A DNA stretch of 64,000 bases from Streptomyces bottropensis ATCC 25435 (GTDB taxonomy: Bacteria; Actinomycetota; Actinomycetes; Streptomycetales; Streptomycetaceae). Numbering within the stretch: position 1 is the first letter of the stretch; the number at the start of each line of letters is the position of its first letter. The notes under the pieces are model-generated. The model saw only the letters and a program-made list of their open reading frames with translations. It was not told the origin of the DNA and did not search any database. Below are positions 36,715 through 57,082 of this stretch, one piece after another. Location: NCBI RefSeq assembly GCF_000383595.1, contig NZ_KB911581.1, positions 3,292,265-3,356,264 on the forward strand, in the 5' to 3' direction. The translations under genes were made by a program, and so were the position numbers.

Positions 36715-36724
36715 GCGGGACGTA

Positions 36725-38113: not shown

Positions 38114-38114
38114 C

Positions 38115-38936: not shown

Positions 38937-38940
38937 GACC

Positions 38941-40167
38941 GTGACCGGATCCACCACCGATGTCGTCATTGTCGGCGGGTCGACCGCCGGCCTTCGGGCC
39001 GCGGAGGCCGTCGCGCGGCACGCCCCCGAGCTCAGCGTCACGGTCATCAGCGACGAGCCTCATCTGCCTTATGAGCTCCCGCCGTTGTCCAAAGTCGCCC
39101 TGGACGACCAACTCGACGTGGGCGCACTCGTGTATCCCTTCGCCGCGGGTCTGCGCGACCAGGGGGTCGACTTCAGACTCAACACCCGTGCCCGGGCACT
39201 CGACACGAAGTCGAACACCGTCTTCCTGTCCGACGGAGAACTGACCTATCGTGCGCTCGTCATCGCGACCGGGTGCGAGGCGTTGATCCCGCCGCTGTTC
39301 GCCGGTCGTCCCGGTGTGCACGCGTTGCGTCGCTTCGAGGACGCGACTGCCCTACGTGCGGCCGTCGCCGATCCGGCACTCTCCGTCGCCATCGTCGGAG
39401 CCGGCTTCATCGGTGGCGAGTTCGCCTCGACGCTCGTGAAGGCGGGGCGCGCCGTCTCGCTCATCGACCTGGCGGCGAAGCCGCTGGGGCGGTTCGGCGA
39501 GCCGGTCGCCGACGCCTACGTGGCCCTCCATCGGAACGCGGGCGTCGGCCTCTTCCTGGGCAGCGGTGTCGTCGACGTCGCCGAGGAGGACGGCCGCCGC
39601 TCGCTGGTGCTCGACGACGGCACGCGGGTTCCCGCCGACGTGATCGTCGTCGGCGTCGGTGTTCGCCCGTCGATCGACTGGCTCCGGGACTCCGGGCTGA
39701 CGTTCGACAACGGGATCCTGGCCGATGCCACCCTCCGGGCGGCGGACAACGTGTTCGTCGCCGGCGACGTCGTCCGCTGGCCCAACGCCCGGTTCGGCAC
39801 GGTGATGCGGACCGAGCACTGGACCAGCGCTGCCGAGCAGGGGCGCGCCGCGGGGATCAACGCCGTGAAACTCATCCGCGGCAGCGAGAGCGAGGACTTC
39901 GCAAACGTGCCGTACTTCTGGTCGGACCAGCACGGCATCCGGATCCAGTTCTCGGGCCATCTGAACGGTGACGAGGAAATCGTGGCGAGTCGCACCACGG
40001 ACGGCTCTCTCTTCCTCTACCGGCGGGGTGAGGTGGTGACCGGCGTGCTGGCCTTCGAGCGGCGCGCTCAGTTCGTCAAGCTGCGGGCGCTGCTGCGACG
40101 GGAACTGAGTTGGCAGGCCGTCGGCGAGCTCATGCCCCAGACAATCCTCAACAAGGAGTACCAGTGA
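38941..40167 (+). CDS. ferredoxin reductase (NAD(P)H, FAD-dependent)
   Basis: 408 residues. FAD motif VVIVGGSTAGLRAAE (about residues 8-22) and NAD motif VAIVGAGFIGGEFAS (about 145-159) frame a two-domain oxidoreductase; VFVAGDVVRWPN (about 270) is the FAD pyrophosphate loop. The C-terminal VPYFWSDQHGIRIQF is the dimer/ferredoxin contact typical of putidaredoxin-reductase-like enzymes. It should transfer electrons from NADH to the ferredoxin at 35348 and hence the P450. GTG at 38941. The paralogue at 62135 is recognisably similar throughout. Confidence 0.88.
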   Translation: MTGSTTDVVIVGGSTAGLRAAEAVARHAPELSVTVISDEPHLPYELPPLSKVALDDQLDVGALVYPFAAGLRDQGVDFRLNTRARALDTKSNTVFLSDGELTYRALVIATGCEALIPPLFAGRPGVHALRRFEDATALRAAVADPALSVAIVGAGFIGGEFASTLVKAGRAVSLIDLAAKPLGRFGEPVADAYVALHRNAGVGLFLGSGVVDVAEEDGRRSLVLDDGTRVPADVIVVGVGVRPSIDWLRDSGLTFDNGILADATLRAADNVFVAGDVVRWPNARFGTVMRTEHWTSAAEQGRAAGINAVKLIRGSESEDFANVPYFWSDQHGIRIQFSGHLNGDEEIVASRTTDGSLFLYRRGEVVTGVLAFERRAQFVKLRALLRRELSWQAVGELMPQTILNKEYQ

Positions 40168-40961
40168 TGGCTGACGTGACGGAACGGCGCAGTGCGGTCA
40201 TTACAGGGGCAGCCCAGGGGCTGGGCGCGGAGATCGCCTTCCGTCTGGCCGCTGAGGGATTCGCGATCGCCCTCCTGGACCTGCAAAAAGAGGGCCTGAA
40301 CCGCACCAAGGGAGAGATCCAAAGCCGCTTCGGCGAGAGCGCGGTCAAGGTGATTCCGGTTGATCTTTCCGGTGAGGAACTCGTCGCCGGCGCGTTCGGG
40401 GAGATCGACGTGGAGTTCGGGCGCATCGACGTTCTCGTGAACACCGCGGGTGGCAGTGGGACAGTACAGGTCCGAGACATCGAAGACCTGTCGTCACAGA
40501 CGTGGCACACCGTGCTGGACAACAACGTCACGAGCACGTTCCTGTGCTGCAAGTACGCCGTGCCGATCATGCGGCGTAACGGCTACGGCCGGATCGTCAA
40601 CTTCTCCTCCGCGGTGTCAAGTGGCCTCGCCGGCCCGTCCGGGACGATCGGCGCGCGGCTTCCCTACGCGGCCTCCAAGGCGGCGATCAACGGCTTGACC
40701 AAACAGCTCGCCAAGGACCTCACCCGCAGCGGAATCACCGTGAACGCGGTCTCCCCCGGGCTCATCCTGCCCGAGGAGGGCCGTGTGAGGACGGTGTTCG
40801 ACTCTCTCTCCGACACGGACCAGGCCGCCATCCGTAAGGCGATTCCTGCCGGGCGAACCGGTACGGCGCTTGAGATCGCGTCTGCCGTCGCATATTTGGT
40901 CTCCGAGGATGCCGGCTTCACTTCCGGCACCATCCTGAGCGTCGACGGCGCCGCTTCCTAG
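40167..40961 (+). CDS. short-chain dehydrogenase/reductase
   Basis: 264 residues. NAD(P)-binding TGAAQGLGAEIA (about residues 12-23), NTAGGSGTV (about 90), catalytic Ser in NFSSAVSSG and Tyr/Lys in YAASKAAINGL (about 171). It overlaps the ferredoxin reductase stop by one base (TGATG) with AGGAG upstream. It would oxidise or reduce an alcohol or carbonyl intermediate of the pathway; a hydroxy-acyl or dihydrodiol substrate is possible but undetermined. Confidence 0.87.
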   Translation: MADVTERRSAVITGAAQGLGAEIAFRLAAEGFAIALLDLQKEGLNRTKGEIQSRFGESAVKVIPVDLSGEELVAGAFGEIDVEFGRIDVLVNTAGGSGTVQVRDIEDLSSQTWHTVLDNNVTSTFLCCKYAVPIMRRNGYGRIVNFSSAVSSGLAGPSGTIGARLPYAASKAAINGLTKQLAKDLTRSGITVNAVSPGLILPEEGRVRTVFDSLSDTDQAAIRKAIPAGRTGTALEIASAVAYLVSEDAGFTSGTILSVDGAAS

Positions 40962-41020
40962 TCCCCGCCCTGCGCCCAATATCTACGGCGCATCAGAGCA
41001 ACAAGAGAGGGAGCCGGCCA

Positions 41021-41740
41021 TTGCTCCAGCATCCATTGGTCCTCGTGCCCGCACTGGGTTCCGATGCCCGGCTGTGGCAGCCGGTCATCGACCGCATCCA
41101 CGACCGCATCGAATCCGAATGCGTGGTCATTCAGGGCACCGGGGACTCGATCGAGTCCATGGCGGACGACATACTCGGCCAGGCACCGGACCGGTTCTAC
41201 CTGGCTGGGATCTCGATGGGCGGCTATGTCTCCCTGGACATCGTGCTCCGAGGGACCGGGCGAGTCGCGGGGCTGGCGTTGCTGAACACGTCCGCGATCG
41301 CCGCACCGCCCGACCGCCGAAAGAGCTCGGTCAGCCTCATCGCGCTGGCCGAGTCCGGTCGCTTCGACGAGGCGGTGGACCGGGTCAGCGGCGCCGTCGC
41401 GCCGACCCGCCCCGATGTGACCGCCCTCGCGGCCTCCATGGCTCGTGACCTGGGCCCCGAAATCTTCAAGGCGCAGCAGACCGCGGTGCTGGACCGTCGT
41501 AATCGCAGGTCCGAGATCGCGAAGATCGCCGTGCCGACGTTGATCGTCGCCGGCGACGCGGACGCGATCACGCCTCTCCAGTTGAGCGAGGAGATGGCAG
41601 ACTCGATACCCGATGCGGAGCTGCACGTCCTCGGAGGGATCGGCCACCTCTCGACCCTCGAAGTGCCCACCGTGGTCGCGTCGCATCTCGTGGACTGGCT
41701 GCTGCGCATCGACGGCCACGGCCGAAAGACAACGCGATGA
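41021..41740 (+). CDS. alpha/beta hydrolase (3-oxoadipate enol-lactonase-like)
   Basis: 239 residues from TTG at 41021 (AGAGGGAG upstream). Nucleophile elbow GISMGGYVSL (Ser about residue 67), acid in VAGDADAITPL and His in GGIGHLSTLE complete the triad. Overall size and pattern match small hydrolases such as enol-lactonases and carboxylesterases. The stop overlaps the maleylacetate reductase start (ATGA), placing it next to the step that forms 3-oxoadipate, but the actual ester or lactone is unknown. Confidence 0.82.
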   Translation: MLQHPLVLVPALGSDARLWQPVIDRIHDRIESECVVIQGTGDSIESMADDILGQAPDRFYLAGISMGGYVSLDIVLRGTGRVAGLALLNTSAIAAPPDRRKSSVSLIALAESGRFDEAVDRVSGAVAPTRPDVTALAASMARDLGPEIFKAQQTAVLDRRNRRSEIAKIAVPTLIVAGDADAITPLQLSEEMADSIPDAELHVLGGIGHLSTLEVPTVVASHLVDWLLRIDGHGRKTTR

Positions 41741-42801
41741 CGATCTCCTTCGATCACACGGCGCACGACCAGAGGGTGCTCTTCGGCACCGGCAAGGCAG
41801 TCGCCAACACGGTCGTGGCGCTCGAAAGCCTCGGCGCGAAGCGGGTGCTGCTCATCGCGGACGCGTTCGCGACAGTGCTCTCCGACGCCGTCGCCGAACT
41901 AAGCCCCGTCGTGGCGCGGGTCCACGAAATCGTCCAGCACGTGCCGATCGAGAACGCCACGAGGACCGTCGCGCTCGCCCGAGAGCAAGGGGCCGACGCG
42001 GTCATCACGATCGGCGGCGGGTCCTCCATCGGCCTGGCGAAGATCGTCGCCCGTGACGCCGGCCTGCCGATCGTCGCGGTGCCGACCACCTTCGCCGGCT
42101 CCGAGGCGACGAACGTGTGGGGCGTCACCGAGGCCGGGCGCAAGACCACCGGCATCGACGACAAGGTGCTGCCGAAAGTCATCGTCTACGACGCATCCCT
42201 CATGGCGAGCCTGCCCGGCCGGCTGGCCGTCTCCAGCGGGCTCAACGCGGTCGCGCACGCCGTCGACGGGTTCTGGTCTCCCCGGACCGACCCGATCAAC
42301 AGGGCGATGGGCACGGAAGGGCTGCGAGCCCTCTTCCCCGGGCTGCGCGCTCTGCACGCCGATCCGGAGGACATCGGCGCCCGCGAGCAGACGCTCTACG
42401 GTGCTTACCTCGCTGCGGTCGCGTTCGCCTCCGCAGGTTCCGGAATGCACCACAAGATCTGCCACGCGCTCGGCGGCACCTACAACATGCCGCATGCGGA
42501 GACGCACTCCGTCGTGATCGGCTACGTCACGGCGTTCAACGCCCCGTACGCCTCTGAGGCCGCCGAGCGCCTCGCCGCGGCGATCGGCGACGGCCGCACT
42601 GCCGCCGCCGGGATCTACGCACTGCGTCAGGGGGTCGAGGCCCCGATGTCGCTGAAGGAGCTCGGCTTCAAGGAGGACCACATCTCCGAGGCGGCCGGCA
42701 TCATCCTCCCGGCCATCCCGCCGTCGAACCCCCGCCCCGTGACCCGAGCCAACCTCGAGGCGCTGCTGCGCGCCGCCTGGGCAGGCGACCTGATCGAGTG
42801 A
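41737..42801 (+). CDS. maleylacetate reductase
   Basis: 354 residues of the iron-type alcohol dehydrogenase superfamily. Nucleotide loop TIGGGSSIGLAK (about residues 90-101), then AVPTTFAGSEAT, VAHAVDGFW (about 182) and HKICHALGG with NMPHAETH (about 235-255), whose His residues hold the metal or substrate. The enzyme reduces maleylacetate to 3-oxoadipate with NAD(P)H, the step after hydroxyquinol ring cleavage. The hydroxyquinol-type dioxygenase at 63457 in the same island supports this. A strong terminator follows 54 nt after the stop. Confidence 0.92.
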   Translation: MTISFDHTAHDQRVLFGTGKAVANTVVALESLGAKRVLLIADAFATVLSDAVAELSPVVARVHEIVQHVPIENATRTVALAREQGADAVITIGGGSSIGLAKIVARDAGLPIVAVPTTFAGSEATNVWGVTEAGRKTTGIDDKVLPKVIVYDASLMASLPGRLAVSSGLNAVAHAVDGFWSPRTDPINRAMGTEGLRALFPGLRALHADPEDIGAREQTLYGAYLAAVAFASAGSGMHHKICHALGGTYNMPHAETHSVVIGYVTAFNAPYASEAAERLAAAIGDGRTAAAGIYALRQGVEAPMSLKELGFKEDHISEAAGIILPAIPPSNPRPVTRANLEALLRAAWAGDLIE

Positions 42802-43289: not shown

Positions 43290-43796
43290 CTACGACGCCT
43301 TTGCGGCGTCGAACCTCGCCCGGGATTCGGCGATTTCGCCCGCGTGCCGGTCGATGCAGTCGAGCAGCGTCATAAACCCGCCCGACAACTCCCTGCCGAG
43401 CGGTGTCAGAGAGTACTCCACGTGCCGGCGTCCGTCGTCGAAGACCTCGCGCGCGATGATGCCGTCCCGTTCGAGCAGCCGGAGATTCAGCGTCAGCATC
43501 CGCTGCGAGATCGGGTGTGAGGGGTCCAGCGCCGCGAGCAGCCGCTGGATCGTCGACGGCCGATACGGTCCGGTGCGAACGATCACCAGGAGCCAGTTGC
43601 GCCAATAGTTGCCGATGTGATCCACGACGGCCACGATCGGGTTGTCGCTGCTCTGCTCGAAGCGCGCCAGCTGCCCGGAAACGTACTCGAAGAGTTCCTC
43701 TACGCGGCGCGTTCGGCAGCGTCGCGCCGCCGTACTCGTCGTCGCGCCTGTTGGTCTCGTGCCAGAGGAACGGGTCGAGCAGATAGCCGTGGGCAC
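43290..43796 (-). CDS. HxlR-type winged-helix regulator, start uncertain
   Basis: The minus frame reads IVAVVDHIGNYWRNWLLVIV, then TGPYRPSTIQRLLAAL, ISQRMLTLNLRLLERDGIIA and YSLTPLGREL: the HxlR/MarR-like winged helix with the usual RML motif. No ATG, GTG or TTG with a ribosome site lies where HxlR proteins start (near 43703); the frame instead runs back to an ATG at 43796 through codons belonging to the truncated Old Yellow Enzyme gene. The gene may be N-terminally fused at a rearrangement joint, or start within the domain. It could regulate the neighbouring catabolic genes. Confidence 0.6.
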   Translation of the reverse strand: MPTAICSTRSSGTRPTGATTSTAARRCRTRRVEELFEYVSGQLARFEQSSDNPIVAVVDHIGNYWRNWLLVIVRTGPYRPSTIQRLLAALDPSHPISQRMLTLNLRLLERDGIIAREVFDDGRRHVEYSLTPLGRELSGGFMTLLDCIDRHAGEIAESRARFDAAKAS

Positions 43797-44115
43797 AGTG
43801 CACCTCGATCCCGTGCGCGCCGATCTCCCGGGCGATCAGCGCGCTCTGGACGTACGCCTCCTTGGTGTCCTCAAGATCCCGCCTCGTCATCGCCACGCCG
43901 TTCGGGCGGTCCTCCTGCACAAGTCCTAACGGGCTGAGCGCCGGATGATCCGGGTATGGGTTGGGCACGCCGTCGAGCACCAGGCGCAGCGCACCCGGAT
44001 GCCACAGCTGCATGAGGAACACCACGTCGCCCGTCCCGAGCACGGCGTGGGCGACGCGACGCCAGTCGTCCACCGTCCTGCGGCCGATGATGCCGAAAAC
44101 TGCAGGTTCGGCATG
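43699..44115 (-). pseudogene. Old Yellow Enzyme family (NADH:flavin oxidoreductase) fragment
   Basis: The minus frame encodes VVFLMQLWHPGALR, GIEVHCAHGYLLDPFLWHET and NRRDDEYGGATLPNAPR, the central part of an Old Yellow Enzyme/2,4-dienoyl-CoA-reductase barrel. The N-terminal ~50 residues and the whole second half, including the C-terminal barrel, are missing. The fragment stops at 43699, the point where the HxlR coding sequence begins, so it was cut by a deletion. Confidence 0.75.
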
Positions 44116-44288
44116 AAGGCGGCGAGCGTTGCCGCAGGGCTGTGGGAGGAATTCACTTACGAGGCGCCTTGCTGGGGCCGGGTTGAAGCGTAGAAACTCC
44201 CATCTTTCCAGCTCAGCGGGCACCTCTCTGCGTCAGCCCCGCCAGCGGCCCATCACCCGTCGGTGGAACCAGGCCGGGCGCGGGCAGG

Positions 44289-44782: not shown

Positions 44783-45658
44783 TCACCGTGACGACAACGG
44801 CTGCAGTGGCGCTACGGAGGCGGCTGCCCGGCGCTGGGCTCCGCGAACGGTCTGCGCGAGGAGGGTCGCGATCGTCATCGGGCCCACTCCGCCGGGGACC
44901 GGGGTGATGAAGGAAGCACGCTCCACGGCCGTATCGAAGTCGACATCGCCTCGATTGTCGGCATACCCCGCGTCGACCACCACCGCGCCCGGCTTGACCC
45001 ATTCGCCGTTGACGAGTCCCGGCACCCCGACCGCCGCCACGACGATGTCGGCTCGCTCGATGTGCTCGCGTAGGTTTGTGGTGCGTGAATGGCAGTACGT
45101 CACGGTCGCGTCGCGGCCCAGCAGGAGCATCCCCATGGGCTTGCCGAGGATGGCGCTGCGACCGATCACCACCGCGTGGCGACCGGCGAGCGGCACATCG
45201 TAGGCGTCCAGCAGCGCCAGGATCCCACCAGGCGTCGCGGACGCGAACCCCTCCTCGGTGAAGGCCATGGCAGCGAACGACGTCCGGGTCACCCCGTCGA
45301 CGTCCTTGTCGGGGTCGATCGCCTCGAACGCGGCGCGCTCGTCGATGTGGCCGGGCACCGGATGCTGAAGCAGGATGCCGTCGACCTCGGGATCGGCCGA
45401 CAGGTCGCCGATGACACGGCACAGTTCCTTGGTGTCGATGCCGACGTCGAGATCGAACCGGCGCGACTGGATCCCGACTCGGCCACAGCGGTTGACCTTC
45501 ATCCGCACATAGGTGTGCGAGGCCGGGTCATCGCCCACGAGCACCGTCGCCAGCACCGGCCGCCGGCCATGTACCCGGCCGAAGTCCACCACTTCCGCCC
45601 TCAGTTCGGCCAGCATCGCCGACGACACCGCACGGCCGTCCAGGAGTTGTGCCGCCAC
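44783..45658 (-). CDS. folD: methylene-THF dehydrogenase/cyclohydrolase
   Basis: 291 residues. Family motifs: TYVRMKVNRCGRVGI (catalytic Lys about residue 55), LLQHPVPGHID (about 96), VVIGRSAILGKPMGMLLL (NADP loop, about 162) and PVPGGVGPMTIATL (about 256). FolD oxidises 5,10-methylene-THF to methenyl-THF and hydrolyses it to 10-formyl-THF. It lies just after purU and ligM in the minus-strand operon, so here it likely serves C1 removal in O-demethylation rather than housekeeping. The general genome copy would be elsewhere. Confidence 0.93.
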   Translation of the reverse strand: MAAQLLDGRAVSSAMLAELRAEVVDFGRVHGRRPVLATVLVGDDPASHTYVRMKVNRCGRVGIQSRRFDLDVGIDTKELCRVIGDLSADPEVDGILLQHPVPGHIDERAAFEAIDPDKDVDGVTRTSFAAMAFTEEGFASATPGGILALLDAYDVPLAGRHAVVIGRSAILGKPMGMLLLGRDATVTYCHSRTTNLREHIERADIVVAAVGVPGLVNGEWVKPGAVVVDAGYADNRGDVDFDTAVERASFITPVPGGVGPMTIATLLAQTVRGAQRRAAASVAPLQPLSSR

Positions 45659-45707
45659 TTCTGCACCTTCATTTCTATCGAGATCAGGGAACCGCGCATG
45701 GCCCCGG

Positions 45708-46580
45708 TCAGAAAACCACTGTCTGGTTGCCGTCGCGGATCACCCGGTCCTCGCAATGCCACGCCACGGCCCGCGACAGGACCTGCCTCTCGACATCGGC
45801 ACCTCGCCGCTGGAGATCCGCCGCCGTCTGGACGTGGGAGACCCGCACGACGTCCTGCTCGATGATCGGGCCCTCGTCCAGGTCCTCGGTCACGTAGTGA
45901 GCGGTCGCCCCGACCAGCTTCACACCACGTTCCTTGGCCTTCAGGTACGGCCCGGCACCGATGAACGCCGGCAGGAACGAGTGATGGATGTTGATCACCG
46001 GCGCACCCACCTCCTCGATGAACTCCCCCGAGAGGATCTGCATGTACCGGGCCAGCACCACCAGGTCGACGTTTCCCTTGAGCAGCTTCAACTGCTCCTT
46101 CTCGGCGACCGCCTTCCCGCCCTTGTCGACGGGAACATGGAAGAACGGGATACCGAAGCCCCGCACGTCATCGCCCAGATCGGGGTGGTTGGAGATGACC
46201 ATGGCCACGTTCATGTGGATCTCACCGCGGCGTTGACGCCACAGCAGGTCCAGCAGACAGTGGTCCGCCTTCGACACCATGATCGCCACACGCTTGGGTC
46301 TGCGCGCCTCCACCAGCCGGTAACCCAGCCCCAGCGCGCCCAACGCCTTGTCCAGCTCGTCCTCGAGCGTGGCCATGCGATCCGGTAGACCGTCCAGGTG
46401 GAACGTCGTGCGCTGGAAGAACCGGCCACCGGCAGGATCGGTCGAGTACTGATCGAGCGAGACGATGTTCGCGCCGACCTGAGAGAGCAGGGACGACACC
46501 GAAGACACGATCCCCGGTCCGTCAGCCCCCTGAACGATCAACCGTCCAAGGTCAGCAGCATCATGAGCGGGTACAGACAT
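45708..46580 (-). CDS. purU: formyltetrahydrofolate deformylase
   Basis: 290 residues. N-terminal ACT domain (RLIVQGADGPGIVSSVSSLL, about residues 13-32) and C-terminal formyltransferase-like domain with VISNHPDLG, NIHHSFLPAFIGAGPYLKA (catalytic Asn-His) and TAHYVTEDLDEGPIIEQD (Asp). It hydrolyses 10-formyl-THF to formate and THF. Placed 49 nt before folD and 113 nt after ligM, it completes a route that clears methyl-derived C1 units and regenerates THF for the demethylase. Confidence 0.93.
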   Translation of the reverse strand: MSVPAHDAADLGRLIVQGADGPGIVSSVSSLLSQVGANIVSLDQYSTDPAGGRFFQRTTFHLDGLPDRMATLEDELDKALGALGLGYRLVEARRPKRVAIMVSKADHCLLDLLWRQRRGEIHMNVAMVISNHPDLGDDVRGFGIPFFHVPVDKGGKAVAEKEQLKLLKGNVDLVVLARYMQILSGEFIEEVGAPVINIHHSFLPAFIGAGPYLKAKERGVKLVGATAHYVTEDLDEGPIIEQDVVRVSHVQTAADLQRRGADVERQVLSRAVAWHCEDRVIRDGNQTVVF

Positions 46581-46693
46581 GAAAGAGATTCCTTTCGAGG
46601 TTGCGGCAGGTCCTGGGCGCCGGCTGCCTGGGCGCTGCTTCGGTGAACCAGGAGACGACCCGCGGAGCCTGAGGCGGCGCCGCGGGTGGATGC

Positions 46694-48079
46694 CTACGCG
46701 GATGCGACTCCGGAGGGGACGGCGCTGAGGTCGAAGTCCTTGTTGCTGGCCAGGTCCAGGTACGGGAATCGTTCGACCGTGGCACGGATCGGCTTGATCC
46801 GTCCGCCGTGATCGCCCCAGTGCACGACGACCTCTGTGCCGATTTCACCGTGCTCCAGGTCGATCGTGGAGTGCGAGATCATCTCGCGGTAGTAGTAGGA
46901 GTACACCGCGACCGAGGAGACTCCGACCGGCTTGTCGTCCTTGGTGACCAGGTCGGCGTGACCGCCGGCGGGCGCCTGCGGCGAGGTGGGGAACTCGAAG
47001 TGCTTGTACTCCTCGCCGGGCTCGAACTGCGAGGCGAACACGTCGAGTACGTCCTCCTTGTTCCACCGCAGTACCACCGTCTTGCGGCGCCGGTTCGCGG
47101 CCTCGGCCTCCAGCGCCTCACGGCCGATGAAGTCGTGGTCGAACTTCGCCATCCAGCCCCAGTTCACCTCGAACGGGGTCCGCAACCGCGCGGTCATGTC
47201 CTTCGGATCGGCGCTGCCCGGCAACGGCCCCTCCACCTGCGACGGCGGCAGCGTGGCCCCGAACACCGGGTGGGTGACGAATCCGGGGTCGGCGAACGCG
47301 GCCGGCAGGAACGTACACCCCTGCTGCGGGAAGCCGCCCTCGGTGTGGTTGACCAAGTAGGTACGCCATCCGAGTCGCTTGAGTCCGAAGTCCTTCCCCG
47401 CCTGGAATACGGCGTCGAACACCGCCGGGCCGTGCTCGAGCGGTCCGCGCAGCTCGTACGCCAGGGTGCCTGCCATGCCGATCCGGGACAGCTCGATCTC
47501 CACCGACGTGTCGATCCCCGGGATGCTGACCTGCTTGACGCCCAGGAACTTCAGCGTGCGCAGCGGCTCATCGATGAGCCGCTCCAGGACCTGCAGGGAG
47601 GTTGGACCTGCGACCTGGAACACGAAGACGTCTCGAAGCCCGATCTCAACGTCCAGCCCCATCGACGGCGCCTTGTACAACGACCACGGCATCGCGGCGA
47701 ATTGGCGGAAGGAGTCCTCGCTGTCACGCACCGTGAGGCCGTGATTGGCGATGTACCCGCGTTCGTCGAGCATCACCAGATGCTTCGAGGTACCCACCGG
47801 CCACTTGTAGACGTTGTTGATGCTCAGCCGCGACAGGAACTCCTGCGCCTGCGGACCACTGAACGTGATCTCGGGCAACCCACTCAGGTTCGACGCCAGA
47901 TAGGCGGTCGTCTTCCACGACATCGACTCCTGCTTCCATCCGTCACCCTCCCAGATGTGCAGGCTGCCCAGGATGTTCAGGTACGTCGGGACATCCGGGT
48001 ACGCCGGAACGTCGTGGATGGCGACCAGCCCGGTCTCGCCCGGACCGCCGGGCCCCACAGCACTGCCGTTACCGCTCAT
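46694..48079 (-). CDS. ligM: LigM-type tetrahydrofolate-dependent O-demethylase (GcvT fold)
   Basis: 461 residues, longer than GcvT (~370) and the size of LigM/DesA-type vanillate, 3-O-methylgallate and syringate O-demethylases. The N-terminus MGWKQ-like GDGWKQESMSWKTTAYLASN, LSRLSINNVYKWPVG and VFQVAGPTSLQVLERLID show the aminomethyltransferase fold; YELRGPLEHGPAVFDAVFQAG and TEGGFPQQGCTFLP are the middle, and a C-terminal beta barrel ends the protein. THF accepts the methyl from a methoxyphenol. purU and folD beside it strongly support this. The exact substrate (vanillate, syringate, methoxyhydroquinone) is unknown. Confidence 0.82.
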   Translation of the reverse strand: MSGNGSAVGPGGPGETGLVAIHDVPAYPDVPTYLNILGSLHIWEGDGWKQESMSWKTTAYLASNLSGLPEITFSGPQAQEFLSRLSINNVYKWPVGTSKHLVMLDERGYIANHGLTVRDSEDSFRQFAAMPWSLYKAPSMGLDVEIGLRDVFVFQVAGPTSLQVLERLIDEPLRTLKFLGVKQVSIPGIDTSVEIELSRIGMAGTLAYELRGPLEHGPAVFDAVFQAGKDFGLKRLGWRTYLVNHTEGGFPQQGCTFLPAAFADPGFVTHPVFGATLPPSQVEGPLPGSADPKDMTARLRTPFEVNWGWMAKFDHDFIGREALEAEAANRRRKTVVLRWNKEDVLDVFASQFEPGEEYKHFEFPTSPQAPAGGHADLVTKDDKPVGVSSVAVYSYYYREMISHSTIDLEHGEIGTEVVVHWGDHGGRIKPIRATVERFPYLDLASNKDFDLSAVPSGVASA

Positions 48080-48160: not shown

Positions 48161-49102
48161 TCACGCCTCGTCCTCGATCTGGTCGTAGCGCACCCCCTTG
48201 ACGCGCTCCATCACGGTCCGCAGCCGCTCGGGCTCACGACCTGTGAGCAGCTTCACGTGGTGGGACAGGAGCGCCTGATAGCCCTCGGCGACCGCCAGAT
48301 CGGCCGTCACCAGCTCGTCGCTGGCCCACATGTGTCCTTCGGAGCTGGGCGGCATGTCGGGGTCGTAGGTACGGGGCAGGCCGACGGAGTCGAAGAACGC
48401 CAGCCGCTCCTCCTCGGTCTGCGGCACGTAGGTGATCGGCGTTCCGTGCACCTCGGAGCCGATGCGCACGATGTCGTGCATGCTCAGCAGTTCGGGACCG
48501 GTGATCTCGTAAACGGCGCCCGCGTGCCGCTCGGATTCGCGCAGCACCGCGGCAGCGCTCCGGGCCACATCTCCCTTGGCCACCGGGGACAGGGAGCCCT
48601 GCCCACACGCCATCTCCAGCCGGCCGTTCTCCACGACGGAAGCGATCCAGATGTTGCTGACGATCTCGGCGTAGAGGTGGTTGCGCAGGAACGTGAACGT
48701 GATCCCGGAGGCCCGCAGGTCCTGCTCGGTTTGGTAGTGGTCCTTCGCCGACATGGCTGGGTTCCGCGGGTGCTGAACACCACCGACCGAGGGGTAGACG
48801 ATGTGGCGGATGCCCGCTCGCTGAGCAGCGGCGATGGCGTTGCGGTGCTCCGACACGCGTCGGCCGAGGTTGAGCCCGCTGATCAGGAAGAGTGTCTCCG
48901 CACCCTTGTACGCCGCATCCAGCGAGTCCGGGTCCGTGTAGTCGCCTTTCAGGACGGGGACGCCTTGGGCCACACGGTCGGCCAGCTTCTCGGGGGTGCG
49001 TGTCACAAGCGTCAGCTCGACGCCCGGGTCCTCGTCCAGCAGCAACCTCGTAACGCGACGCCCGAGGTCTCCTGAGGCACCGCTGATGACGATTCGGCTC
49101 AT
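48161..49102 (-). CDS. NmrA-like NAD(P)H-binding oxidoreductase
   Basis: 313 residues from ATG 49102 (GGAGAG upstream; the longer frame extends into noncoding DNA). Nucleotide motif VISGASGDLGRRVTRLLLD (about residues 4-22), GDYTDPDSLDAAYKGAETLF and FLRNHLYAEIVSN are typical of NmrA/QOR2-type short reductases, which often reduce quinones. In a cluster making hydroquinones this would be a good quinone reductase. It lies between the VOC dioxygenase and ligM genes in the minus-strand operon. Confidence 0.8.
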   Translation of the reverse strand: MSRIVISGASGDLGRRVTRLLLDEDPGVELTLVTRTPEKLADRVAQGVPVLKGDYTDPDSLDAAYKGAETLFLISGLNLGRRVSEHRNAIAAAQRAGIRHIVYPSVGGVQHPRNPAMSAKDHYQTEQDLRASGITFTFLRNHLYAEIVSNIWIASVVENGRLEMACGQGSLSPVAKGDVARSAAAVLRESERHAGAVYEITGPELLSMHDIVRIGSEVHGTPITYVPQTEEERLAFFDSVGLPRTYDPDMPPSSEGHMWASDELVTADLAVAEGYQALLSHHVKLLTGREPERLRTVMERVKGVRYDQIEDEA

Positions 49103-49293
49103 TGCTGTCTCTCCGCTTCCTTGGTTCTTCGATGACCCTGCCGAGGGCGTTTCTTGGCGACTCTGGGCCTTGTGGACGGATGCCGCCGAGATCACCAGTG
49201 CCAGCCACGCCGGTCCGGGCTCATGCAACGGCGCCCCGGCAGACGGGCCTGCGCCGCAGGATGTGACATGAGTGATCAGTGCTGAGGCGGGTG

Positions 49294-50499
49294 TCAGCCG
49301 AGCGGTCCCCAGAAGGTCTCGCCGCCGTAGGTGTCGGAGAGTGGTGTCAACGTCTCGGGCCACACACCGGCCTGGACCTTGCGACGTTCGTCCTTGTGCC
49401 GCACGCGGCCGTCCCAGCCGACCTGTTCCATGTAGTAGTACAGCTGCATCACGTGACCGTCGGGGGAAACCGCGTGGATCACGTAATCGACCCCCTGGTG
49501 GATCTCCTGCGGCAGGTCGATGAGCTTGACGCCCTTCTCCTCCAGGAACGTCTTCGCCGCACGGAGTTGCTCGTAGGAACCCACCTGCACACCGAAGGCG
49601 AGCAGTGTGCTCCCCTCCCGCGCCCCGAGCACACTGCGCAGTTCCAGAGGAAGGAGCGTCAGGCTGTGATGCTCGGTGTTCGCTCGCAGGAAGAGGACAC
49701 GGTGGCCGGCGACCGTGGACTCCTCGCTCTTTCGCAGGCCGAGTCGGTCGGTGTAGAAGCGCTCCGCGGCGTCGATGTCCTCGACGAAGATGCTCACCGG
49801 TCCGATGCGCACCGGTTTGAACGGCTGGGCGAGCAGGACGCCTCCGACGTCGTACGTCTTCGGCAGCTCGTCGACCCAGCGGTGCCCCGACGTCAGATCA
49901 ATGCCCGCGGCGCGGGCTTCGGCGAGCTCGGTCGACTCCGACTTGTACGGCAGTTCGGGGTGCTCGTTGAGCCACGGCCACGTCACCTCCGGCTTGCTCA
50001 GGCCGTCCCAGCCGACCTGCTCGATGCCGTACTCCAGTTCGTTGACGTGGCCGGTCGGGTCGGGGAAGTAGGTGTGCCAGTTGGAGCCGGGGTCGCGGCC
50101 GTAGCGTTCGATCTTCTGCCCGAGCTCGGCGAGCCAGATCCGCGCCTCGACGACCTCCCGGAGGCTGCCGACCTGCCAGGTGATTTGGTTGACCGTGATG
50201 TCGGCACGCGCCGGCGGTTCCATGTGCTCGATCCACGGGCGCGGCATGATCACGAGGGTGTGGTGGTCGCTGTTGTGCCGGAGAAAGAAGATGCGCGTGT
50301 CGGGGACGCCGTCGAGCCAGGGGCCCGGGTCGGTCTTCTGGACATCCAGCGTGTCGGCCACCGCGAAGCCGAGCAGGTCGCGGTAGAACGCGGCGGCCTC
50401 GCCGGTGTTGTCGACGCTGATGCCGAAGTGGTTGAGCCGCCGGATCTTGAAGGGACGCTCGTACAGGACGCCGCCGACGTTGAACTTCTTCGTGGTCAT
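49294..50499 (-). CDS. two-domain VOC-family extradiol dioxygenase
   Basis: 401 residues. Two related halves, each starting with the same pattern (NVGGVLYERPFK... and DVGGVLLAQPFK...). In the N-half the metal triad is complete: His24 (RLNHFGI), His79/80 (SDHHTLV) and Glu154/156 (GHVNELEYG). In the C-half the first His (RIGPVSI) and the Glu (HVMQLYYY) are lost. Catechol dioxygenases of this superfamily usually keep the active site in the C-half, so the arrangement is reversed. Fe(II) or Mn(II) ring-cleavage of a catechol or hydroquinone is likely. GAGG precedes the ATG. Confidence 0.82.
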   Translation of the reverse strand: MTTKKFNVGGVLYERPFKIRRLNHFGISVDNTGEAAAFYRDLLGFAVADTLDVQKTDPGPWLDGVPDTRIFFLRHNSDHHTLVIMPRPWIEHMEPPARADITVNQITWQVGSLREVVEARIWLAELGQKIERYGRDPGSNWHTYFPDPTGHVNELEYGIEQVGWDGLSKPEVTWPWLNEHPELPYKSESTELAEARAAGIDLTSGHRWVDELPKTYDVGGVLLAQPFKPVRIGPVSIFVEDIDAAERFYTDRLGLRKSEESTVAGHRVLFLRANTEHHSLTLLPLELRSVLGAREGSTLLAFGVQVGSYEQLRAAKTFLEEKGVKLIDLPQEIHQGVDYVIHAVSPDGHVMQLYYYMEQVGWDGRVRHKDERRKVQAGVWPETLTPLSDTYGGETFWGPLG

Positions 50500-50510
50500 G
50501 TGCTCTTTCC

Positions 50511-51521
50511 TCAGTCGGTCGGCTTGACGACTTCGTTGCGGATGGTGCCGATCAGGGCGGAGGAGACCTCCACGACGTCGCCGGGCTTGAGGAACAGCGT
50601 GTCCGGGGTGGAACCGTCCGCTTCCTGCTTGGTCGAGTCGACAGCTGTGCCCTTGGGCGTGCCGCTGGCGATCAGGTCGCCGGGCCACAGGGTCGTGTCC
50701 CTGGACAGGTGTTCGCCGAGCGCGGCGAAGGTGTGCACCATCGAGCTCGTGTTGCCGCTCTGGCGCACTTCACCGTTGACGCGGCACTCAACGGGAATGT
50801 CCTGCAGATCGGTTCCCTCGTTCACGACGATCCAGGGGCCGACCGTCGCAGAGGAGTCGAAGTTCTTCGAGTACGCGAAATCGGGACCGAAAGACCCGTG
50901 GTCCCTGACCGACCAGTCGTTGAACAACGTGAAGCCCCACACGTGTGAAGCGAAATCGTCGCCCTTGATGTCGCGACCGGCCTTGCCGATGACGACGGCG
51001 ATCTCCGCCTCATAGTCCAACCGCTCGGTACGTACCGGATAGCGCAGGGGATCGCCGCTCGCGGACACGGCACGGTGATCCTTGATGAAGAATTTCGGCC
51101 CGCCGGCCATGAGACGCCTGAGGGTGGCCTCGGTGTCCGCGCCAGAAGAGTTGTCAGCCGCGCTCTGCATGTGGTCGGCGAAGTTGGCGAGGGCGCAGAG
51201 GATCCTGGACTGGCCTTCGATCGGGGCGTGCAGCTTGACCTCGTCGAGTCCGAACCGGAGCTGCTCGCCTGCCACGCCACGAACGTCCTGCGCCTTGTCC
51301 GTCAGGTATTCCAGCGCAGCCCGGGCGCCGTCGAGGGCGCGCGCCCCCTCTTCGATGAACGCGTTGAGCTGGGCGGGCACGGCTGCGGCTGCCTCGACGA
51401 GCGGCCGGGCGGCATCCGTTGTTTCGGCCACGTATTTCGCGTACGCGCCGTTGATGTCGACGACGGTGTTCTCGTGCACCACACCGACCCGCCGGTCCGG
51501 ACCGAATACTGCGACCTTCAT
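50511..51521 (-). CDS. fumarylacetoacetate hydrolase-family protein
   Basis: 336 residues. The FAH metal site is visible: EAEIAVVIGKAGRDI (Glu residues about 195) and FTLFNDWSVRD (Asp about 225), with WPGDLIASGTPKG (about 295) shaping the substrate pocket. Family members split acylpyruvates, oxaloacetate or fumarylpyruvate after ring cleavage. It ends 11 nt before the dioxygenase start, so it probably hydrolyses that enzyme's ring-fission product. AAGGAG lies 5 nt before the ATG at 51521. Confidence 0.88.
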   Translation of the reverse strand: MKVAVFGPDRRVGVVHENTVVDINGAYAKYVAETTDAARPLVEAAAAVPAQLNAFIEEGARALDGARAALEYLTDKAQDVRGVAGEQLRFGLDEVKLHAPIEGQSRILCALANFADHMQSAADNSSGADTEATLRRLMAGGPKFFIKDHRAVSASGDPLRYPVRTERLDYEAEIAVVIGKAGRDIKGDDFASHVWGFTLFNDWSVRDHGSFGPDFAYSKNFDSSATVGPWIVVNEGTDLQDIPVECRVNGEVRQSGNTSSMVHTFAALGEHLSRDTTLWPGDLIASGTPKGTAVDSTKQEADGSTPDTLFLKPGDVVEVSSALIGTIRNEVVKPTD

Positions 51522-51576
51522 TTTTCTCCTTGTGTACTGGTGGAAAGCAGTGGGATTGACATGACGGATCGCCGGA

Positions 51577-51954
51577 TCACTTCGATTCGGGGTCGACACC
51601 GATCTTGTCGAAAAGGCGTCCGTCCGTGGGGGTGAGGCTGTAAATCGCGAGGCGCTCGATCTTTCCGTCGCGGACCGTGAAGAAGTCAGCGAGTGTCATG
51701 GTGTTCCCGTTGGCGATCAGATCGATCTCCACCGCGACGTTCTCGCCGTCCACGACGAACCGTTTGGGCGTCGGCTTCATCGCACCGGGCGCAAGGCCGT
51801 TCTCGTACATCCGTGTGATCGCCTCGGCCCCGGTCAATGTGCCCGCGGCGTTCTGGAGTACCGCGTCCGGCGCGAACAGGCCGCCCACGGCTTGCGGATC
51901 GGCCGCGGTGACGCCGTCGAAGTAGGCTTCGACGACATCGGCAGGACTCGTCAT
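51577..51954 (-). CDS. NTF2-like (SnoaL/ketosteroid isomerase fold) protein
   Basis: 125 residues, the size of one NTF2-fold domain: ADVVEAYFDGVTAADPQAVGG, LFAPDAVLQNAAGTLTGAEAI and later DFFTVRDGKIERLAIY. Such domains form a cone-shaped pocket in isomerases, dehydratases and lactonases, without fixed catalytic residues. The ATG at 51954 has GAAGGGACG before it. Lying between the ALDH and FAH genes, it may isomerise a pathway intermediate (for example maleyl to fumaryl type), but this is a guess. Confidence 0.78.
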   Translation of the reverse strand: MTSPADVVEAYFDGVTAADPQAVGGLFAPDAVLQNAAGTLTGAEAITRMYENGLAPGAMKPTPKRFVVDGENVAVEIDLIANGNTMTLADFFTVRDGKIERLAIYSLTPTDGRLFDKIGVDPESK

Positions 51955-51991
51955 GTCCCTTCGTCCCTTCTCGTTGTTCCTCTTGGTCGGA

Positions 51992-53470
51992 TCACGCCGG
52001 GAGGTACTTCGTCGAGGCGTAGACCGACTTGTACTCGAGGTAGGCGTTGATTCCCTCCGGCCCGAGTTCGCGGCCGATTCCCGAGTCCTTGTATCCGCCG
52101 AACGGCGCGCCGAGATCGAGGGTGTAGTAGTTGAGCCCGATGGTGCCGGTGCGTACGCGGCGTGCCACAGCCAGCGCCCGGTCCTCATCGGCGCTCCATA
52201 CGGAGCCGGCGAGACCGTAGTTGCTGTCGTTGGCGATCCGGACCGCGTCATCGTCGTCGTCGAACGGGATGAGCGCCATGACGGGGCCGAACACCTCCTC
52301 ACGGGCGAGCCGATCGGCGTTGTCGACATCGGCGAAGACGGTGGGTTGCACGAACCATCCCCGGTCCAGGTGATCGGGACGGCCACCGCCTGTGACGAGT
52401 CGAGCGTCCGAGTTCTTGGCGATCTCGATGTAGTTGAGAACGCGCTTCAGGTGCCCTTGGGTGGCCATCGGGCCCATCGTCACGGAGGGATCGAGAGGGT
52501 CTCCGAGCTGGTACGCGTCCGCGAAGCCCGCGACGGCGTCGACGACCTCGTCGTAGCGGGAGCGTGCGATGAGGATCCGTGACTGGGTCGTGCAGGTCTG
52601 GCTGTTGTTCAGGAAGGACGCGTTGTCCAGGCCGGCGAGCAGGGTCTCGACATCCCCGTCCTCGAGGAAGATCGCAGCCGACTTGCCGCCCAGTTCGAGG
52701 GTGACGCGGCGAATCAGCCGACCGCACTCCTGGCCGATGGCCCTACCGGCGTCGGTGGACCCGGTGAAGGCAATCTTGTCGACCAACGGGTGCGAAACGA
52801 GCGCGGCGCCGGCGTCGCGGCCACCGAGCACGATGTTCAGCACACCCTCGGGCAGCCCAGCCTCCTGGGCCGCATCGGCGAAGACGTACGAGTCGAGCGC
52901 GGTCTCCGGCGAGGGCTTCAGCACCACCGTGCAGCCGGCGGCGAGCGCCGGTGCGATCTTGAACATGGCGAGCACCTGCGGGAAGTTCCACGGCGTGATC
53001 GCGCCGACTACGCCGACCGGTTCGCGGCGGACGATCGTCGAACCGGCCTGGCTCGGGCGCACCTCCTCCAGCGGGAGGTTCTCGATGACATCGGCGTAGA
53101 TCCGCAGGAGCACGGCGGGCGCCCCGCCGTTCAGCATCTGCGAGAGCCCGATCGGCATTCCGTTCTCGCGACTGACCAGAGTCGAGGTGTCCCCGGCGCG
53201 CTTTTCGAGTGCGTCCGCGAACCTGCGCAGCACCGCGGCACGTTCGGCCGCCGTGGTACGTCCCCAGGGGCCCTCGTCCAGCGCACGTCGGGCGGCGCGG
53301 ACAGCGGCGTCGATGTCCGCTTCTGTGCCGAGCGCGGCGACGCCGATGCGCTCTCCCGTGGCGGCCTCGATCTGGTCCTGCAAGCGGTCGCCGCTTGGGT
53401 CGACCCATCCTCCATCGATGAAGAAGCGCTTACGGTCGAGGTCACTGGGCCGCTCGGCGGTGAGGGACAT
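51992..53470 (-). CDS. aldehyde dehydrogenase
   Basis: 492 residues, standard length. NAD-site GSTDAGRAIGQECGR, catalytic Glu in TLELGGKSAAIFLED (about residue 258) and catalytic Cys in NNSQTCTTQSRI (about 292). The C-terminus GAPFGGYKDSGIGRELG is typical. In this setting it could oxidise a semialdehyde or an aromatic aldehyde such as vanillin. The start has AAGGAG 7 nt upstream. Confidence 0.9.
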   Translation of the reverse strand: MSLTAERPSDLDRKRFFIDGGWVDPSGDRLQDQIEAATGERIGVAALGTEADIDAAVRAARRALDEGPWGRTTAAERAAVLRRFADALEKRAGDTSTLVSRENGMPIGLSQMLNGGAPAVLLRIYADVIENLPLEEVRPSQAGSTIVRREPVGVVGAITPWNFPQVLAMFKIAPALAAGCTVVLKPSPETALDSYVFADAAQEAGLPEGVLNIVLGGRDAGAALVSHPLVDKIAFTGSTDAGRAIGQECGRLIRRVTLELGGKSAAIFLEDGDVETLLAGLDNASFLNNSQTCTTQSRILIARSRYDEVVDAVAGFADAYQLGDPLDPSVTMGPMATQGHLKRVLNYIEIAKNSDARLVTGGGRPDHLDRGWFVQPTVFADVDNADRLAREEVFGPVMALIPFDDDDDAVRIANDSNYGLAGSVWSADEDRALAVARRVRTGTIGLNYYTLDLGAPFGGYKDSGIGRELGPEGINAYLEYKSVYASTKYLPA

Positions 53471-55698: not shown

Positions 55699-55797
55699 GC
55701 CGAATTCCTTCTCTAGTCGCGAGATCGCGTCCCGCGTCGAGCGCTCCACTGGAGGTTGCGCGGCCGCAGCGGTCGAAAATTGCCGACGCGGACGCCT

Positions 55798-57003: not shown

Positions 57004-57082
57004 CTGTCCTCCAGCTCTGGAAGCCACCGGCCAATGCAGACCGCGAGCCTCAAGTCACCTTGCTGGAGAGCGAGCCATAGGT

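Follow-up and report, generated by a model that had tools for sequence, protein, structure and literature searches.

A LigM look-alike beside its own FolD and PurU in Streptomyces bottropensis is a probable tetrahydrofolate-dependent methylenetransferase

Which one-carbon group does a LigM-like enzyme remove when its gene neighbours are FolD and PurU? Such a trio lies in the DNA analysed here (the window, 64,000 nucleotides from Streptomyces bottropensis ATCC 25435), where the original prediction read it as a tetrahydrofolate (THF)-linked O-demethylation module of the sphingomonad kind, surprising in a streptomycete. That surprise is smaller than claimed, because the available text of PMC9296663 already predicts LigM/DesA-like THF enzymes in actinobacteria. 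At issue is the chemistry: an O-demethylase would pass on a methyl group, whereas a methylenetransferase (demethylenase) would pass on the methylene of a methylenedioxy ring.

Results

The folate module

The three genes run in one direction with small gaps, as predicted; their ORFs lie on the minus strand, separated by 49 bp and 113 bp.

46694–48079, minus strand, 461 aa: GcvT-fold enzyme of the SesA/BrdA-like (His-type) branch, a probable THF-dependent methylenetransferase and LigM look-alike (profiles, trees, residues, AlphaFold2 model)
45708–46580, minus strand, 290 aa: PurU, formyl-THF deformylase, the genome's second copy (profile scores)
44783–45658, minus strand, 291 aa: FolD, methylene-THF dehydrogenase/cyclohydrolase, the genome's second copy (profile scores)

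PurU scored 370.6 bits against an equivalog cut-off of 285.95 (TIGR00655). FolD was assigned from a full-length match (residues 1–277 of 291) whose best score, 356.9 bits, is below the best-matching model's own cut-off of 475 and under the strict cut-offs of all 25 models listed. These identities support the predicted THF-linked one-carbon reading, with dedicated FolD and PurU, in an actinomycete. Whole-genome counts gave two FolD and two PurU proteins above cut-off and, by Pfam MTHFR search, one MetF; this single match is 3.3 Mb away, in keeping with the earlier remark that no metF was visible. We count the duplication of FolD and PurU alongside a single MetF in favour of the demethylenase reading.

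A GcvT-fold enzyme outside the LigM/DesA family

Structures of LigM (5x1i and 5tl4) match residues 45–436 of the enzyme (E 1.6e-43), identity with LigM is 31%, and the AlphaFold2 model (pLDDT 88.9) matches both LigM and T-protein structures. Family scores fell far short of the thresholds: 186 bits against a curated cut-off of 580 for the LigM equivalog model NF047885, and 200.7 bits against 800 for the DesA equivalog model NF047633, which by comparison gives 833.3 bits with a Sphingobium GV_Bin_3 gene. Two further families were ruled out by score, the glycine-cleavage T proteins (TIGR00528, 31.9 bits against 235.85) and the sarcosine oxidase alpha subunits (TIGR01372, 66.1 bits against 1164, with 461 aa set against a family protein of about 1000 aa). 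A GCV_T family search of the whole genome found three proteins: the T protein, the window enzyme and one of 321 aa that we take from its motif to be YgfZ. The search for further ligM and metF copies proposed with the original prediction thus returned no second LigM-like gene and one MetF.

Dimethylglycine and DMSP reactions are served by the same fold, so the one-carbon unit might come from an N-methyl or S-methyl compound or a formaldehyde adduct. We consider this improbable: the enzyme has no flavin domain of the kind found in dimethylglycine or sarcosine oxidases, its scores with the soxA, TMAO demethylase and DMSP demethylase models are well under their cut-offs, and its neighbours (below) form an aromatic-type catabolic set. 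In favour of such a substrate, some other window-type genes come from anaerobes, and those of Psychrobacter and Deinococcus adjoin SMR efflux genes; these relatives possibly act on non-aryl substrates.

Phylogeny separates two types. Of 173 confirmed relatives, 80 were kept, giving 79 distinct loci; 199 complete copies yielded 135 rows once duplicates were removed. By the key site these are 29 Gln-type rows (LigM-type) and 105 His-type rows (window-type), one row with neither H nor Q being excluded from counts. In a careful tree of 56 rows, 21 LigM/DesA-type and 35 window-type sequences (hand-picked from 81) fell on opposite sides of one branch, with 100/100 support and in 100% of 200 bootstrap trees. 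A quick tree of 104 rows, from an input of which 33 of 136 rows were removed as near copies, gave the same split with support of 99. The genome's own GcvT was the outgroup there, and the clustering with glycine-cleavage T proteins named in the original prediction as counter-evidence was not seen. In both trees the window enzyme lies outside the LigM/DesA clade. Because neither tree holds the assayed SesA (LC101493), BrdA (LC214741–LC214747, a set that includes CDS4435) or PipA sequences, the link to those enzymes comes from residues quoted in the accessible part of PMC5547118 and not from the tree.

With 105 of the 135 rows, the window-type branch is a wide one and may contain demethylases too. 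When the window's own genome is counted, the tally was 7 of 100 at E 1e-30 and 9 of 396 at E 1e-45; without it, 6 of 99 and 8 of 395 remain, all at 42% identity or below. Two window-type rows (L046 and L059) had LigM as the better query; their signature is nonetheless window-type.

Signature residues of the demethylenases

The available text of PMC5547118 reports that every BrdA demethylenase conserves SesA H82, R100, R179, H225 and E189. In the alignment, the window enzyme carries this pattern in full (H100, R118, R199, H245 and E209, respectively). LigM has Q, Y, R, T and E at these places and so keeps two of the five, its Q, Y and T replacing the window's H, R and H. Y241 of the window enzyme aligns with the LigM tyrosine that we take to be catalytic. 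At the SesA D95 place the window enzyme has His instead of Asp; the accessible text of PMC5547118 likewise does not list this Asp as retained in the BrdA1 of BD3100 or in the CJ1 enzymes. The same text gives R81 (SesA numbering) as the sole non-conserved residue among the proposed proton donors, and the window enzyme has K there.

These results divide the original LigM-type claim. A GcvT-fold enzyme that is, by homology, THF-dependent and one-carbon-removing stands; membership in LigM/DesA is ruled out by score, tree and residues. With the enzyme outside that clade at 100/100, an O-demethylase of the sphingomonad kind is not supported, and O-demethylation is not the best-supported reading. An aryl O-demethylase could still come from a divergent branch, moving the methyl of a methoxyarene to 5-methyl-THF, which a housekeeping MetF would convert to methylene-THF for FolD and PurU. 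Fold kinship with LigM and the tyrosine at the catalytic place fit this alternative. We hold it to be unlikely, though less so than the N- or S-methyl reading, since it must account for the 100/100 split and for the three of five demethylenase-conserved residues (as quoted in the available text of PMC5547118) that are kept here and missing in LigM.

MetF accompanies LigM-type genes and not window-type genes

A methyl donor requires MetF to reach the methylene level, and a methylene donor does not. Neighbours within 3 kb were counted for genes whose flanks reached that length, namely 20 of the 29 Gln-type rows and 71 of the 105 His-type rows. MetF lay near 10 of 20 LigM-type and 0 of 71 window-type genes, and a broad MetF profile returned the same counts. 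Since one branch alone separates the types, this contrast is not a series of independent events, and its weight is overstated by the Fisher p of 2.9e-8. PurU (8 of 20 against 15 of 71, p 0.14) and FolD (3 of 20 against 11 of 71, p 1) did not separate the types in this way. Among loci with FolD or PurU nearby, MetF was present in 8 of 9 LigM-type and 0 of 17 window-type cases; 54 of the 71 testable window-type genes had neither FolD nor PurU.

The MetF query sets favour detection beside LigM-type genes, because they were partly drawn from MetF genes there. A search with Pfam MTHFR, free of that bias, was run on 27 whole genomes and placed MetF within 3 kb of 8 of 17 LigM-type and 0 of 24 window-type genes (gene places matched in 16 of the genomes, some contigs being short). 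It also detected divergent MetF genes adjoining LigM-type enzymes that a Streptomyces housekeeping MetF, as sole query, had missed.

Absence of MetF separates the window-type genes from the LigM/DesA branch. For one locus such absence proves nothing, as 10 of 20 LigM-type genes also have no MetF nearby; the window lacks the clustered MetF of LigM/DesA-type systems, a weak criterion for the same reason. Those ten genes, and a housekeeping MetF that exists and could serve the module, are what the aryl O-demethylase reading can draw on here. Against it, MetF is near none of the 71 window-type enzymes, yet PurU or FolD is near 17.

A recurrent catabolic cluster

The module is part of a catabolic cluster of about 19 genes with a patchy distribution; two further actinomycetes and a Rhodococcus plasmid carry it whole or in part. 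The further genes in the window are as follows.

57121–58041, plus strand: divergent LysR regulator (synteny)
55798–57027, minus strand: FAD monooxygenase, nearest solved relatives HspB and PnpA (profile, synteny)
54511–55749, minus strand: CaiB-type (formyl-CoA transferase family) CoA transferase (profile, synteny)
53696–54514, minus strand: CitE/RipC-like C–C lyase (under the RipC cut-off; synteny)
51992–53470, minus strand: aldehyde dehydrogenase (profile, synteny)
51577–52017, minus strand: NTF2/SnoaL-like small protein, approximate start (weak match, 22 bits against a cut-off of 33.95; synteny)
50511–51599, minus strand: fumarylacetoacetate-hydrolase-family protein (profile, synteny)
49294–50688, minus strand: two-domain VOC/extradiol-dioxygenase-like protein, start probably near 50499 (profile, synteny)
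48161–49120, minus strand: NmrA-like NAD(P)-binding reductase, nearest solved relatives YtfG and triphenylmethane reductase (profile, synteny)
41737–42801, plus strand: maleylacetate-reductase-like Fe-ADH (profile, synteny)
41021–41740, plus strand: alpha/beta hydrolase (read from sequence; synteny)
40110–40961, plus strand: short-chain dehydrogenase, approximate start (read from sequence; synteny)
38941–40167, plus strand: ferredoxin-reductase-like FAD protein (read from sequence; synteny)
38115–38936, plus strand: MaoC/FAS1-DH-like dehydratase (Pfam match under cut-off; synteny)
36725–38113, plus strand: MmgE/PrpD-family protein (profile, synteny)
35536–36714, plus strand: cytochrome P450 (profile, synteny)

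Most same-strand catabolic genes lie upstream of the enzyme gene (57027 down to 48161), where the original prediction had spoken of downstream enzymes. The NmrA-like gene is directly upstream of the enzyme gene here and in three syntenic clusters, and a LysR counterpart (65–66%) adjoins the FAD monooxygenase gene in the Rhodococcus koreensis and Rhodococcoides trifolii clusters. Comparison of three proteins with solved structures led us to no substrate claim: of the 14 solved relatives that the NmrA protein has at E 1e-6, YtfG and triphenylmethane reductase were nearest, the VOC protein had no solved relative at E 1e-6, and no clear favourite for the P450 emerged from the best 60 of 211 solved matches at E 1e-20.

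Together with the genes around it, the enzyme–PurU–FolD order recurs in Streptomyces sp. NBC_01446, Rhodococcoides trifolii and a Rhodococcus koreensis R85 plasmid; in S. griseorubiginosus it recurs without them. One cluster copy is carried by a mobilizable plasmid. FolD and PurU are common genes and could in principle stand beside the enzyme with no common function. Such a chance neighbourhood is highly improbable, however, given one order in five loci (the window included) across two actinobacterial families and given that both folate genes are second copies; the recurrent order and neighbours make the module more than chance. In the open literature searched, including the available text of PMC5547118, PMC12753220, PMC9404685, PMC7731202, PMC9296663 and PMC7797058 and with most subscription papers outside its scope, no comparable cluster is described.

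Discussion

What the genes are, where the enzyme falls in the trees, which residues it carries, how the genes adjoin and how the cluster is conserved are results of this analysis; the CH2 chemistry and the direction of one-carbon flow are inferred. The reading that we favour, with some confidence, is that the enzyme is a THF-dependent methylenetransferase of the SesA/BrdA branch that opens a methylenedioxy ring, FolD and PurU taking the one-carbon unit to formate. Acting on an aromatic plant compound, the enzyme would turn the ring into a catechol and pass its CH2 to THF, forming 5,10-methylene-THF. By oxidation, the neighbouring FolD would then produce 10-formyl-THF, from which the neighbouring PurU would release formate and free THF by hydrolysis. 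As FolD and PurU reach formate and free THF, THF would be recycled without MetF. More speculatively, the HspB/PnpA-like FAD enzyme might hydroxylate the ring of the catechol product or displace its side chain, followed perhaps by VOC ring cleavage, aldehyde dehydrogenase and maleylacetate reductase, while the CaiB, MaoC and CitE gene products might process the side-chain fragment. Maleylacetate reductase and the HspB/PnpA-like hydroxylase would also suit an aryl O-demethylase feeding a 4-methoxyphenyl-to-hydroquinone route.

If the methylenetransferase reading is right, FolD and PurU with no MetF nearby hint at methylene chemistry, and the cluster is a conserved, testable catabolic unit for a putative plant compound. 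Window-type members with about 44–55% identity occur in the anaerobes Treponema, Lachnospiraceae and Blautia; an MFS transporter adjoins the gene in all three anaerobe loci scanned. A tentative extrapolation, which we regard as rather doubtful, is that the window-type enzymes form a wide methylenedioxy-opening sub-branch from soil actinomycetes, where the gene would sit within a complete cluster for aromatic degradation, to anaerobes, that gut members open dietary rings (for example, of sesamin) without oxygen and that an adjoining MetF distinguishes demethylases from demethylenases. We know of no assayed member of this sub-branch. Were the idea true, gut members would supply the missing genes for anaerobic opening of dietary methylenedioxy rings, and genome reading alone could tell the two activities apart by the adjoining MetF. 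If the methylenetransferase reading holds, database labels would need correction. Genes of this sort tend to carry the name vanillate/3-O-methylgallate O-demethylase, as BrdA did (PMC5547118, available text), or aminomethyltransferase, as in plasmid records; both would be chemically wrong if methylene is removed and not methyl.

Comparison with known systems

LigM and DesA, the O-demethylases of vanillate, 3-O-methylgallate and syringate, resemble the window enzyme in fold, in their presumed dependence on THF, in being coupled to C1-THF genes and in the catalytic-Tyr place. They differ in the sub-cut-off scores, the opposite side of the 100/100 split, Q/Y/T for the window's H/R/H, and MetF near 10 of 20 such genes. 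Further instances of MetF in the accessible texts are Atu1418 beside Atu1420 (PMC7797058) and the MB2.64 genome (PMC9296663).

Among the demethylenases, SesA, the sesamin methylenetransferase of Sinomonas sp. no. 22, shares with the window enzyme six of the eight residues quoted in the available text of PMC5547118; the window enzyme has K for R81 and H for D95, and its R100–R179 spacing is 81, against 79 in SesA. The BrdA berberine demethylenases of Rhodococcus BD7100, Sphingobium BD3100, Arthrobacter GBD-1 and Burkholderia CJ1 are, according to the same text, THF-dependent GcvT-like enzymes of 429–463 aa (461 aa here), annotated as LigM and 26.7% identical to it (31% here), and all five of their conserved places are kept in the window enzyme. 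PipA, the piperonylate methylenetransferase of Rhodococcus ruber No. 14, offers the parallel in gene context: in the accessible part of PMC12753220 it is an actinobacterial methylenedioxy-ring enzyme inside a large induced catabolic cluster, with 42 of 48 genes induced.

Gene organization of the folate module

The window encodes FolD, PurU and a 461-aa GcvT-fold protein (hereafter the window enzyme) at the 3′ end of a minus-strand gene run that starts at 57027. The original prediction of three genes running in one direction with small gaps was borne out, with intergenic distances of 49 and 113 bp; that observation is confirmed, and its interpretation as a ligM-purU-folD O-demethylation module is half right. 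The trio was assigned by ORF reading and family match, and the putative identities of the plus-strand ferredoxin reductase, SDR and hydrolase were read from the sequence.

44783-45658, minus strand: FolD
45708-46580, minus strand: PurU
46694-48079, minus strand: GcvT-fold window enzyme, 461 aa
From 57027, minus strand, in order: FAD monooxygenase, CaiB-type CoA transferase, CitE-like lyase, aldehyde dehydrogenase, NTF2-like protein, FAA-hydrolase-family protein, two-domain VOC protein, NmrA-like reductase, window enzyme, PurU, FolD
35536-42801, plus strand: P450, PrpD, MaoC-like protein, ferredoxin-reductase-like protein, SDR, alpha/beta hydrolase, maleylacetate reductase
43290-44223, minus strand: old-yellow-enzyme gene fragment running straight into an N-terminally truncated HxlR regulator
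59645-60802, minus strand: solute-binding protein
61769-63355, plus strand: second ferredoxin-reductase-like protein

The last two, found past the LysR gene, could be part of this island as well. G+C content is 0.70-0.77 over about the first 36 kb and 0.66-0.69 from 36000 to the end of the window (64000), past which the low-G+C stretch may extend. Because old-yellow-enzyme and HxlR are distinct genes in Rhodococcus koreensis, set apart by a further flavoprotein gene, the remnants in the window seem to have been fused by deletion.

The window enzyme separates from LigM

Homologs were collected from relatives, the phylum, plasmids, the GTDB species set and ten chosen genomes, yielding 135 complete copies after duplicate removal, to which LigM from the PDB was added. 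At the place of H82 in SesA (sesamin methylenetransferase, whose numbering is used for the compared places), 105 copies carried His, 29 Gln and one neither. In the alignment, the Gln rows, LigM included, have K-Q or F-Q at R81/H82 and, at the H225 place, one of T, S, A, N, P and Q; the His rows have K-H or R-H (C-H once), and H at the H225 place in all. An all-column tree that comprised 104 rows and took GcvT of the source genome as the outgroup separated the two sets on one branch (support 99), and the same split appeared in a 56-row tree (100/100). We refer to the sets as window-type (His) and LigM-type (Gln). In the 56-row tree the window enzyme paired with its Rhodococcoides trifolii counterpart (99/95), inside a group of 7 rows from Streptomyces, Rhodococcus and Microbacterium (100/100) and a wider one of 11 rows that includes anaerobes (100/100), the membership of both groups being read from the 104-row tree.

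The LigM label of the original prediction did not hold, as the enzyme lies across the 100/100 split and scored far under the cut-offs of the LigM model (186 bits versus 580) and the DesA model (200.7 versus 800). These scores, the tree split and the residues rule out a LigM identity; identity to LigM was 31% over aligned columns. With an AlphaFold2 model (mean pLDDT 88.9, 27 sequences), LigM chains were the best Foldseek matches, and VIA-align gave Z values of up to 39.1 for T proteins and 35.7 for LigM. As the fold is common to the whole superfamily, structure matches cannot settle the LigM question.

Within 3 kb, MetF accompanies half of the LigM-type genes counted and no window-type gene

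A methyl donor yields 5-methyl-THF, for which MetF is required; a methylene donor yields 5,10-methylene-THF, for which it is not. MetF lay within 3 kb of 10 of 20 LigM-type genes, the other half having none nearby, versus none of the 71 window-type genes whose flanks were long enough, a contrast in which loci are not independent because the type changes on one branch only. Within the same distance, PurU accompanied 8/20 LigM-type and 15/71 window-type genes, and FolD 3/20 and 11/71; neither was present for 54 of the 71. When only genes with a FolD or PurU neighbour inside 3 kb were considered, MetF was present for 8 of 9 LigM-type versus 0 of 17 window-type genes. The MetF counts stayed the same when six-frame translations were searched with a profile of 34 MetF sequences, in which at least one gene occurs twice. 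A Pfam MTHFR search, independent of our choice of MetF queries, placed MetF within 3 kb of 8/17 LigM-type versus 0/24 window-type genes (27 genomes searched, gene places matched in 16, some genes on short contigs).

The nearest exception was a window-type gene of Microbacterium sp. Leaf288, 4.3 kb from a MetF gene that adjoins a LigM-type gene in the same cluster. That cluster (locus L146, 3481-11174) holds both enzyme types with PurU, FolD and MetF, making it a natural place for a side-by-side comparison of the two chemistries. Published LigM-type systems agree with the MetF contrast: LigM-type Atu1420 of Agrobacterium fabrum occurs together with MetF-like Atu1418 (PMC7797058), and the MB2.64 genome with a LigM-type system contains MetF (PMC9296663).

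The search for further ligM and metF copies that the original prediction proposed covered the whole source genome (one contig of 8.96 Mb, on which the window spans 3292265-3356264). It returned a single MTHFR (MetF) gene, two FolD genes and two PurU genes above the cut-off, and no second enzyme of this kind by GCV_T family, the matches being the T protein, the window enzyme and a 321-aa protein. Over its aligned part, the housekeeping MetF shows no difference from the MetF of Streptomyces stelliscabiei DSM 41803.

Proposed pathway

In our model, the window enzyme would open a methylenedioxyaryl ring to give a catechol and 5,10-methylene-THF, which FolD would convert to 10-formyl-THF with a reduced cofactor, and PurU would release formate and THF. 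The nearest solved structures to the FAD monooxygenase are HspB (E = 6e-101) and then PnpA (5e-77), enzymes that displace the para substituent of a phenol or hydroxypyridine. More speculatively, the monooxygenase might convert a side-chain catechol to hydroxyquinol, whose ring-cleavage product is the substrate of maleylacetate reductase, and the side-chain acid could be taken by the CaiB, MaoC and CitE gene products. For these downstream steps, a version leading from a 4-methoxyphenyl compound to hydroquinone fits nearly as well.

Spread of the cluster

Counterparts of the 19 window cluster genes occur together in Streptomyces sp. NBC_01446 (18/19; enzyme 89% identical) and R. trifolii (19/19; 75%), and 12 are found on a 1.24-Mb mobilizable plasmid of R. 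koreensis R85 (80%), where the compared stretch ends inside CitE. All three clusters share P450, PrpD, MaoC, ferredoxin reductase, FAD monooxygenase, CaiB, CitE and the NmrA-enzyme-PurU-FolD block. NBC_01446 and R. trifolii also have VOC, FAA hydrolase, NTF2, ALDH, SDR, hydrolase and maleylacetate reductase; LysR has a counterpart (65-66%) in R. trifolii and in R. koreensis. Enzyme, PurU and FolD also occur together amid mostly other genes, in S. griseorubiginosus, R. erythropolis R138 and Microbacterium Leaf288, and the folate set therefore acts as a cassette. Besides these, no copy above 58% identity was found among 99 relatives, among 395 other genomes of the phylum, at the best place per matching plasmid record or among the 79 GTDB loci listed (of 173 confirmed relatives). 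That the cluster was acquired horizontally is suggested by its patchy distribution, its presence on a plasmid and its reduced G+C. Plasmid pLRE138 of R. erythropolis R138 carries two enzyme copies, with folP (dihydropteroate synthase) between purU and an enzyme gene (locus L029, 18705-19511). Our literature search returned no description of such a cluster; folate genes beside sesA or pipA (piperonylate methylenetransferase) may already be described.

Relatives in anaerobes and on plasmids

Relatives of the window enzyme with 45-55% identity occur in anaerobes (Blautia glucerasea, Lachnospiraceae, Treponema; coordinates within each locus):

One copy listed: L043 2204-3520; L052 9938-11275; L038 673-2016
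Two copies listed: L044 9965-11281 and 15346-16695; L040 2246-3562 and 7627-8976; L058 9962-11302 and 12523-13875

An MFS transporter directly follows the enzyme gene in all three loci scanned (L044, L052, L058), and the nearby second copy in L040, L044 and L058 has the SesA-like residues RHDRREYH. As human faecal fermentation converts sesamin to enterolactone, according to PMC7731202, these are candidate genes for anaerobic methylenedioxy-ring opening.

In Psychrobacter (plasmids and contigs) and on a Deinococcus plasmid, a window-type enzyme has an SMR (qac-like) efflux gene and a TetR gene as neighbours (L031 1219-3482; L071 3239-5502; L072; L076 8537-10800; L030 7965-10365); such a cassette might serve to detoxify a quaternary or methylenedioxy compound.

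Comparison with known demethylenases

PMC5547118 places SesA and the berberine demethylenase BrdA in one clan and LigM, DesA and DmdA in another, and reports that purified BrdA required THF to open berberine's methylenedioxy ring. By the same text, the proposed SesA proton donors R81, H82, R100, R179 and H225 are kept in all BrdA proteins except R81, E189 is kept in every BrdA protein, and D95 and Y221 are kept in part of them. By alignment, the five shared places (H82, R100, R179, H225 and E189) correspond to H100, R118, R199, H245 and E209 of the window enzyme, respectively, and the places of R81, D95 and Y221 are occupied by K, H and Y. Its pattern matches that of BrdA1 from strain BD3100, for which that text gives Y221 as kept and does not list D95. 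LigM, by contrast, has Q, Y and T at the H82, R100 and H225 places, where the window enzyme has H, R and H. This link goes through the quoted residues rather than through the SesA, BrdA or PipA sequences themselves. Overall, we file the window enzyme, with moderate confidence, as a predicted SesA/BrdA-like demethylenase and not as LigM: a further member of an already known enzyme kind.
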